Shown in pieces: positions 3,330 to 6,471 of a DNA stretch of 6,619 nucleotides (within the stretch, counting starts at the first letter, position 1; the number at the start of each line of letters is the position of its first letter). The notes below the pieces were generated by a model. That model saw only the letters and a program-made list of their open reading frames with translations. It was not told where the DNA came from and made no database searches. The stretch is taken from positions 1-6,619 of the forward strand of contig JBFLYA010000208.1 of NCBI GenBank assembly GCA_040757115.1, in the 5' to 3' direction. This stretch comes from a bacterium. Its GTDB lineage: Bacteria; UBA9089; CG2-30-40-21; SBAY01. The position numbers and the translations under genes were made by a program.

Positions 3330-5963
3330 ATGGATATTCCAAAATCTTACGACCCACATACAGTTGAAAAAAAATGGTATAAATTCTGGCAAGAAAATAA
3401 CTATTTTTATGCCAATGCTAACTCTGATAAAAAAACATTTTCTATCGTAATCCCTCCTCCGAATGTTACCGGCTCTCTTCACATGGGGCATGCCTTGAAT
3501 AATACCCTTCAAGATATTTTAATCCGATTTAAAAGGATGCAAGGATATAATACCCTCTGGCTTCCCGGAACAGACCACGCCGGTATTGCCACCCAGAATG
3601 TGGTTGAAAAACAACTTCGCCAAGAAGGTTTAAAAAGACACGATTTAGGGAGAGAAAAATTTATTCAAAGGGTCTGGGAATGGAAAAGACAATATGGAGA
3701 TTTGATTATTGAACAATTGAAAAGGTTAGGGGCATCCTGCGATTGGTCAAGAACACGATTTACAATGGATGAAGGATTATCTAAAGCGGTGCGAGAGGTT
3801 TTTGTCTCTCTTTATCAACAGGGATTTATCTACCAGGATTATTATATTGTAAATTGGTGTCCAAGATGCCAAACTGCATTAGCCGATATTGAAGTGGTGT
3901 ATAGAGTTATAAATGGCCACCTGGATTATATTAAATATCCCGGAGACAATGACCAGGCAATAATCGTTGCAACAACAAGACCGGAGACAATGTTAGGCGA
4001 TACAGCCGTTGCGGTTAATCCAGACGATAAACGATATAAACACCTGATTGGCAAGGAAGTGATATTGCCTATTTTAGGTCGAAGGCTTAAAGTCATAGGT
4101 GATAACTTTGTTGACCCTGAATTTGGCACAGGGGCAGTGAAGGTTACCCCAGCACATGACCCAAATGATTTTGAGATTGGTAAAAGGCACTCACTTCAGC
4201 AAATCAATATCCTCAATCCAGATGCCACAATGAATGAAAATGCAAGTCATTACCAGGGACTGGATAGATACGAATGTCGAAAAAGATTAGTCGAAGATTT
4301 AAAGGCACAAGGATTGTTAGTTAAAAGACAAGAATATTCCTACTCGGTCGGACATTGCTATCGCTGTGATACAATTATTGAGCCTTACTTATCCCAACAG
4401 TGGTTTGTCCGAATGAAGGAGCTGGCTAAACCAGCGATTGAAGCCGTCCAATCTGGTCGGACAGAGTTTATCCCTAAAAACTGGGAAAAGACATATTTTG
4501 AGTGGATGGTGAATATCAAAGATTGGTGCATCTCAAGACAAATATGGTGGGGACACCTGATACCTGTCTGGTATTGTCAAAAATGTAAAGCCACTTTAGT
4601 GGAAAGAGAGGACCCAACTAAATGTCTTAAGTGTGGGAGTAATGAATTGATTCAAGACCAGGATGTGCTTGATACCTGGTTTTCCTCAGCATTATGGCCA
4701 TTTTCTACACTCGGTTACCCGGAAAAGACAAAAGACCTATCTACATTTTATCCCACTTCCGTGCTTTCTACTGGTTTTGATATTATCTTTTTCTGGGTGG
4801 CAAGGATGATGATGATGGGATTGAAATTTATGGGCAATGTCCCTTTTAAGCAGGTCTATATCCATGCCTTAATTAGAGATGCCGAAGGACAAAAAATGAG
4901 TAAATCCAGAGGCAATGTCATTGACCCACTGGAAGTAATTGATAAATACGGCACAGATGCACTTAGATTTACACTGGCAATTATGGCTGTGCAAGGCAGG
5001 GATATTCTTTTATCTGAGGAAAGAATTGAAGGATACCGACATTTTTGTAATAAATTATGGAACGCCGGCAGATTCATTTTGACGAATTTAGAAGATTATG
5101 TTCGGAATTCAAAATTCGAAATTCGAAATTCGAAATTTTTATCATTAGCCGATAAATGGATTCTAAGCCGACTTAATCAGGTAATCGAAAAGGTAACCGA
5201 GGGGATAGATTCATATCGTTTTAATGAATCTGCTCAAATACTTTATGACTTTATCTGGCATGAATACTGTGATTGGTATTTAGAATTAATCAAACCAGAA
5301 TTAGGAGGGCAAAGAAGGAAGATAACACAACAGTTATTAATAGATACCTATGAGGCAATTTTAAGACTTCTGCATCCGTTTATGCCATTTATTACCGAAG
5401 AACTATGGGAGAAATTACCTGTTCACAAGACAACAAATTCTATTATGGTTACTCCCTGGCTAACATTCAATCCAGACCAGATAGATTTAGACTCAATAAA
5501 GGATATGGATTTGATTAAGGAAATAGTTGTTTCTATCCGCACGATTCGTTCAGAGATGAAGATACCCCCTCAAGTAAAATTTAAAACAGTCATTATTAAA
5601 AGTAAACCCTTTGCCCCATTGGAAGAAAATATCGTCTATGTGACATTTTTGACTCATACGGCTGAAGTAATCTTTGATTTAGATGCCACCAGGCCATTTG
5701 GAGCCGCTGTAATCATCGTTAAAGGAGTTGAGATTTATGTCCCATTAGCCGAAGTTGTTGATTTAGGTAAAGAAGAAGAACGATTGAGTAAAGAACTTTC
5801 AAAGGTAGAAAAGGAATTAAACTTACTTGAGGCGAAATTATCCAATGAAGATTTTATCACAAGAGCCCCAGTTGAGGTGGTTGATAAAGAAAAAGAAAAG
5901 TTAGAATCTTACATCTCAAAACGCGATAAGTTAGTGATGAGTTTAAAATATTATTTTCATTAA
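3330..5963 (+). CDS. valS: Valyl-tRNA synthetase
   Basis: This 877-residue class I aminoacyl-tRNA synthetase charges tRNA-Val in the cytoplasm. Its length is close to typical bacterial ValS. The HIGH motif is HMGH (51-54) in PPPNVTGSLHMGH, and the KMSKS motif is intact (522-526). The editing domain carries TTRPET (about 214-220) and GTGAVKVTPAHDPND (about 268-282). A CxxC pair (CQKC, CLKC) precedes DQDVLDTWFSS and probably binds zinc. A C-terminal coiled coil spans about 810-872. The ATG at 3330 has AGGA (3318-3321) 8 nt upstream; the nearby ATG at 3325 is out of frame. The gene starts 41 bp after the last attC site and is probably the chromosomal flank rather than cargo. Oddity: an in-frame heptamer array encodes residues 593-603 between the catalytic core and the anticodon-binding domain. 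No terminator is obvious after the stop. Confidence 0.98.
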   Translation: MDIPKSYDPHTVEKKWYKFWQENNYFYANANSDKKTFSIVIPPPNVTGSLHMGHALNNTLQDILIRFKRMQGYNTLWLPGTDHAGIATQNVVEKQLRQEGLKRHDLGREKFIQRVWEWKRQYGDLIIEQLKRLGASCDWSRTRFTMDEGLSKAVREVFVSLYQQGFIYQDYYIVNWCPRCQTALADIEVVYRVINGHLDYIKYPGDNDQAIIVATTRPETMLGDTAVAVNPDDKRYKHLIGKEVILPILGRRLKVIGDNFVDPEFGTGAVKVTPAHDPNDFEIGKRHSLQQINILNPDATMNENASHYQGLDRYECRKRLVEDLKAQGLLVKRQEYSYSVGHCYRCDTIIEPYLSQQWFVRMKELAKPAIEAVQSGRTEFIPKNWEKTYFEWMVNIKDWCISRQIWWGHLIPVWYCQKCKATLVEREDPTKCLKCGSNELIQDQDVLDTWFSSALWPFSTLGYPEKTKDLSTFYPTSVLSTGFDIIFFWVARMMMMGLKFMGNVPFKQVYIHALIRDAEGQKMSKSRGNVIDPLEVIDKYGTDALRFTLAIMAVQGRDILLSEERIEGYRHFCNKLWNAGRFILTNLEDYVRNSKFEIRNSKFLSLADKWILSRLNQVIEKVTEGIDSYRFNESAQILYDFIWHEYCDWYLELIKPELGGQRRKITQQLLIDTYEAILRLLHPFMPFITEELWEKLPVHKTTNSIMVTPWLTFNPDQIDLDSIKDMDLIKEIVVSIRTIRSEMKIPPQVKFKTVIIKSKPFAPLEENIVYVTFLTHTAEVIFDLDATRPFGAAVIIVKGVEIYVPLAEVVDLGKEEERLSKELSKVEKELNLLEAKLSNEDFITRAPVEVVDKEKEKLESYISKRDKLVMSLKYYFH
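5106..5140 (+). repeat. Heptamer array inside valS (AAATTCG unit)
   Basis: Three exact AAATTCG heptamers plus flanking partial units lie within the valS coding frame. Three heptamers make 21 nt, so the protein also repeats every seven residues (NSKFEIR then NSKF, residues 593-603). The location is the surface linker before LADKWILSRL, where an insertion should be tolerated. It looks like a repeat of the intergenic type that has entered the gene without breaking it. Confidence 0.85.
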
Positions 5964-5996
5964 GATATGATGATAACCGACACTCAAAATTTTTCC

Positions 5997-6162
5997 ACCT
6001 GTGCAATTAGACTAATTTATCGCAGAGACGCAAAGGAAAAATAAATGTAAAATGTAAAATAGGAAATGAAAAATGGGAAATTTTAGTACTTCGCAAGACT
6101 CATTACCTTTCAGTTATACATTTTCATTTTACATTTCTCATTTTACATTTAACCGCACAGGT
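5997..6162. repeat. Imperfect inverted repeat with TAAAATG heptamers
   Basis: The ends ACCTGTGC (5997-6004) and GCACAGGT (6155-6162) are perfect 8-bp complements. Inside, TAAATGTAAAATG (6042-6054) is perfectly complementary to 6139-6151. The adjoining sequence continues as imperfect complementary TAAAATG-like units to about 6075 and back to about 6113. The right end directly abuts the target duplication of the next element. No flanking duplication is seen, so calling it mobile would be speculative. Confidence 0.7.
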
Positions 6163-6170
6163 CGAGATTC

Positions 6171-6411
6171 GTAACCGTTCAGCCACAGAGGCACAGAGTT
6201 CACAGAGAATTAGAGAAATTAGCCACAAATGGACACGAATTAACCTGTGACATTCGATAAATGTAGTGCGAACCTTTAGGTTCGCTTTCCTGCTTGCCAG
6301 AAGCGCGGCTAAAGCCTCGCACTACAAATCTTTTTATTATTCGTGTTCATTCGTGGTTATATATTCCCTCTGTGTTCTTTGTGACTCTGTGGCTATATCC
6401 TGAACGGTTAC
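6171..6411. mobile_element. MITE-like element with 12-bp TIRs
   Basis: GTAACCGTTCAG (6171-6182) and CTGAACGGTTAC (6400-6411) are perfect terminal inverted repeats. Just outside them CGAGATTC (6163-6170) and CGAAATTC (6412-6419) match in direct orientation at 7/8, as expected of an aged 8-bp target duplication. Inward, the arms stay imperfectly complementary for about 60-70 bp: GCCACAGAG, CACAGAG and CACGAAT motifs on the left, and their complements on the right. At 241 bp and with no transposase, it fits a non-autonomous element moved in trans. From memory, similar CCACAGAG/CACGAAT spacers are common in genomes of uncultivated bacteria. Confidence 0.65.
6262..6326. repeat. Cruciform palindrome within the MITE
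   Basis: TGTAGTGCGA (6262-6271) pairs with TCGCACTACA (6317-6326). Two side hairpins can form between these arms. GCGAACCT (6268-6275) pairs with AGGTTCGC (6278-6285). GCG plus GGCT (6303-6310) pairs with AGCC plus CGC (6313-6320), with one mismatch. The outer stem and the side stems overlap by a few bases, so alternative folds compete. It is probably a separate repeat unit nested inside the larger element. Confidence 0.7.
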
Positions 6412-6471
6412 CGAAATTCTTCCCTGGAAATGAAGACATAAAGGTCAGACCGGGAGCGCGATGCTCTTACT

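Follow-up and report, generated by a model that had tools for sequence, protein, structure and literature searches.

A high-copy MITE family with IS66-type ends downstream of valS and its probable mobilizer

The locus

The window, a 6,619-nucleotide stretch of DNA, contains the valyl-tRNA synthetase gene (valS) and, downstream of it, two short mobile elements. The younger element, MITE1, lies at 6171-6411 and is inserted in the right edge of MITE2 (5995-6164), which is older and belongs to a second family. Neither element, nor any of the target duplications described below, is assigned a strand. Repeats of other kinds occur elsewhere in the window. Positions 66-182 hold an A/T-rich inverted repeat composed of GTTTATA / TATAAAC units, with 63-bp arms that are 71% complementary. 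A 112-bp direct repeat is found at 438-549 and 2226-2337 (92% identity), and between its copies are small genes, including a nucleotidyltransferase and HepT-like pair and a methyltransferase-like gene, with GTTAGC-type palindromes among them. The region bracketed by these repeats looks as if it could be an integron-style cassette array. Within the valyl-tRNA synthetase frame, a short tandem TTCGAAATTC-type repeat (5101-5139) preserves the open frame and contributes NSKFEIRNSKF-like residues.

MITE1 is a 241-bp non-autonomous element. The 12 bases at either end of it are exact reverse complements of each other, forming a left terminal inverted repeat GTAACCGTTCAG at 6171-6182 (plus strand) and a right one CTGAACGGTTAC at 6400-6411 (minus strand), and the two bases next to them on the outer sides, both of them C, do not pair. 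The flanking octamers CGAGATTC (6163-6170) and CGAAATTC (6412-6419) match at 7/8 positions and are the left and right copies of an 8-bp target duplication. A preliminary description of this DNA had called 6163-6419 a probable MITE, citing perfect 12-bp terminal repeats that delimit 241 bp, complementarity that stops at their outer ends and octamers that agree at 7/8 in direct orientation; all of these particulars stand.

Inside the terminal repeats, CACAGAG repeats make up a left subterminal arm (6181-6207, plus strand) that pairs with a right arm (6368-6394, minus strand) at 85% complementarity (inverted repeat I13). The central palindrome TGTAGTGCGAACC...CTCGCACTACA (6262-6326; inverted repeat I15) is part of the core of the element and, in an alignment of copies, is partly missing from a 166-bp deleted copy. 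When the strand is folded, a single long hairpin spans the entire 241 bp (-113.2 kcal/mol, z -11.3). No open reading frame of at least 60 amino acids is contained within the element, and a scan against Rfam returned no family at gathering score. A MITE being defined as a short non-coding element of <500 bp, MITE1 at 241 bp is one by that definition.

A high-copy family with 8-bp duplications

The end sequence GTAACCGTTCAG, allowing at most one mismatch, occurs 434+456 = 890 times in the 4.32-Mb genome, as against 12+9 = 21 occurrences of a reversed-pattern control. Besides split copies, about 20 near-full-length copies of MITE1 (79-99% identity) are present at other sites. These copies and the 890 ends refute the view that the locus is a chance palindrome with chance similarity in its flanks, which we consider the least credible of all readings, even though at least one 12-bp inverted pair arose in 31 of 200 shuffles of the A/T-rich window and a 7/8 octamer match is weak by itself.

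Duplication and load statistics were based on 800 kb of genome stretches, and duplications of different widths were compared over 400 kb. Among 36 adjacent facing end pairs in the 400 kb, 16 were bordered by a perfect 8-bp duplication, while a left flank set against the right flank of another copy gave a perfect 8-bp match in 0.08% of cases. At other widths the same 36 pairs yielded 3 perfect matches for 7 bp and none for 9 to 12 bp. The 800 kb contained 33 perfect 8-bp duplications, the middle of which is A/T-rich. The terminal inverted repeats are constant among MITE1 copies, and large internal insertions and deletions are found in copies whose ends remain intact. The preliminary description had proposed a search for further ends and for duplications around each copy, with missing duplications or variable ends as grounds for abandoning the idea; the hundreds of constant ends and the recurrent duplications uphold it.

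Elements of 100-600 bp between GTAACCGTTCAG-type ends account for about 2.7% of the sampled DNA. At 5 of 31 duplicated copies the joined flanks carry an open frame of 150 amino acids, compared with 78% of random points, indicating that the copies lie mainly between genes. Several contigs begin within about 130 bp of a MITE end, so the fragmentation of the assembly is probably due in part to the MITE load. Two copies (L093:1760-1994 and L138:16418-16568) lie directly downstream of TTGACA/TATAAT promoter-like sites, where the element would join the transcript leader, and the second of these apparently precedes a tRNA-like sequence.

The spacer repeats CCACAGAG / CCGCAGAG are mostly carried by MITEs. 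Within the genome, CACAGAG-type motifs were found no more than 40 bp from an end in 59/65 cases for CCGCAGAGACRCAGAG, 13/13 for CCACAGATGGACAC and 8/11 for CCACAGAGRCACAGAG. The earlier suggestion that such spacer sequences are parts of a mobile family holds. An exact 28-mer scan of a named genome collection gave zero matches.

Insertion into an older element

MITE2 has the ends CCACCTGTGCAATTA / TAACCGCACAGGTCG and a left target duplication AAATTTTT at 5987-5994. The ends of its family read CSACCTGTGCRRTTA, and 8-bp duplications border 5 to 6 of 11 pairs. The MITE1 duplication, CGARATTC, takes in the final two bases of MITE2 together with six of the bases in MITE2's own duplication, and taking MITE1 out restores the latter (AAATTTTT ... 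AAATTCTT, 7/8). A relative of MITE2 in another genome (G002) reads CGAAAT at the place where MITE1 is inserted, which explains the mismatch between the MITE1 octamers: by this comparison, the left octamer CGAGATTC most likely carries one later substitution (the G).

Members of the MITE2 family are also found within copies of MITE1 (L021, L023), at the site AATCTTTT, so that the order of insertion seen in the window is reversed. These insertions occur in both orientations and suggest that AATCTTTT inside MITE1 is an insertion hot spot for MITE2. The preliminary description had not noticed MITE2 beside MITE1.

Empty sites in a congener

A script was used to remove an element together with one copy of its duplication, and the joined flanks were matched to a congeneric genome (G001). 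The joined flanks of the copy at L087:3060 matched at 72/72 bases and those of the copy at L092:14892 at 68/70, both gap-free across the junction. A third candidate, L104:17331, was set aside, its match being broken at the junction by a 5-bp gap. In the congener, the window locus is represented by the same valS end and, downstream, by the start of the same gene, with no MITE; the intergenic sequence differs, so this locus attests the absence of MITE1 and was rejected as a clean empty site of the window copy.

The strong hairpin and the mostly intergenic location of the copies would also suit a structured RNA, a regulatory hairpin or a REP-like extragenic palindrome that had spread without transposition. 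Constant ends with duplications of a single width, exact empty sites, big internal indels in copies that keep their ends and the lack of an Rfam family at gathering score all speak against such an origin, which we regard as very improbable. The single-width duplications and exact empty sites contradict it and likewise substantiate the earlier preference for transposition over a generic intergenic palindrome; together with the high-copy family and its constant ends, they bear out the identification of the locus as a MITE.

IS66 as candidate mobilizer

Elements of the IS66 family have ends that start GTAAGCG or GTAACCG and produce 8-bp repeats (PMC11946415, PMC12888890, PMC3281130). MITE1 has the GTAA(C/G)CG ends and 8-bp duplications of the transposase-only type of this family, and the ends of the MITEs begin GTAAGCG/GTAACCG as in IS66 (GTAACCGTTCAG and GTAAGCGTTCAG forms). 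The same genome contains an IS66 element of 1,563 bp (L061:893-2455) with one transposase gene and perfect GTAACCGTTCAGGTA ends, whose 12-bp ends are identical to those of MITE1. Its left end GTAACCGTTCAGGTATAGC and the right MITE end GTAACCGTTCAGGATATAGC differ by a single base. The preliminary description had recommended looking for a longer transposon with the same terminal repeats and a transposase, without naming IS66, and this element answers to it. Its transposase frame is interrupted by one TAG and one TAA, which leaves present activity unproven, and it is the only long IS66 copy seen in this assembly. The elements may no longer be mobile in this strain, or they may rely on copies that the assembly lacks.

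Intact IS66 copies are present in relatives of the same order, with the ends GTAACCGTTCAC (L107) and GTAACTACTCAG (L106), and both proteins are assigned to IS66 by Pfam and NCBIfam; the intact transposase of L107 is 468 amino acids long. The IS66 copies of relatives end in GTAACCGTTCA or GTAACTAYTCAG, and a contig labelled as Spartobacteria (L183) has the end GTAACCGTTCACGGG. MITE1 differs from IS66 in having no transposase gene, and the two have only their ends and a few subterminal bases in common: inside the ends, some 8 subterminal bases are alike apart from one indel (GGTATAGC / GGATATAGC), and there is no longer match. Two weak IS66 matches of 526-566 amino acids in G001 and G007 (L115, L122) have no such ends nearby. 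Long end pairs at L037, L101, L087, L166, L169 and L171 were considered as autonomous elements and rejected, no transposase being noted by eye among their open reading frames.

The element at 6171-6411 is best read as a MITE mobilized in trans by an IS66-family DDE transposase, with a probability of roughly 0.87. The transposase would recognise the GTAACCGTTCAG ends and move the element into A/T-rich targets by means of an 8-bp staggered cut, which would leave the 8-bp duplication behind. No 8-bp duplication was seen around the IS66 copies L061, L106, L107, L108 and L178 in their fragmented assemblies, so we only infer IS66 to be the actual mobilizer. The MITE1 core, with its foldback arms of CACAGAG-type repeats, is presumably cargo without a coding role.

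Distribution across genomes

The frequency of the motif GTAASYGTTCAG is high in G000, G001 and G008 and moderate in G002, G003, G005 and G013; other members of the phylum have few occurrences or none. G008, which belongs to a different family, has 535 ends, and duplications of at least 7/8 border 19 of 31 pairs, between whose ends lie cores that carry CCACAGAT and CCACAAAG repeats. No IS66 match was obtained in G008 despite these ends. Together with the broken IS66 copy of the genome studied here, this would be expected if the MITE were moved by a transposase of some other family that makes 8-bp duplications, IS66 being a bystander or passenger. We consider that alternative unlikely: IS66 copies whose ends are identical or nearly identical to those of the MITE are present in the genome and its relatives, the end motif and the duplication length are both published IS66 traits, and the longer end pairs that were inspected gave no sign of another transposase among their open reading frames.

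Relation to known MITEs and significance

By kind, MITE1 is an ordinary MITE, and such elements are already well known. Like the type II prokaryotic MITEs (PMC10969869), it is non-coding, <500 bp long, mostly intergenic and bordered by duplications, with a strong hairpin and a similarity to a parent IS that is confined to the ends. Chunjie, a 235-bp MITE of Geobacter uraniireducens (PMC10969869), is of similar size and also intergenic with many partial copies, although its copy number (38 full, 57 partial) is lower than that of the MITE1 family. MITECca01 of Cardinium (169 copies, 3.5% of the chromosome) is likewise a lineage-specific MITE burst linked to a parent IS (PMC9769881). MITECca01 has an IS982-family parent of which intact copies exist, whereas the end type of MITE1 is that of IS66 and the long parent-like copy seen here is broken. 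What is new here lies in the specifics, namely the link to IS66, the high copy number (a load of about 2.7%) and a single end type common to several cores.

IS66 goes unmentioned in a 2024 review of prokaryotic MITEs (PMC10969869), and no MITE linked to it was found in the literature searched, an absence that is no proof of novelty. On this basis, IS66 would be one more IS family that supports MITE bursts. More tentatively, and with somewhat less than even odds, the CACAGAG/CGCAGAG-type intergenic repeats of uncultured bacteria could have IS66 transposases as their hidden driving force: cores unrelated to one another but sharing IS66-type ends would have reached hundreds of copies in several families within one phylum and would persist even where IS66 has decayed or is gone. 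In this uncultured lineage, intergenic palindromes that had lacked an explanation can now be assigned to a distinct mobile family, for which IS66 is the probable mobilizer.
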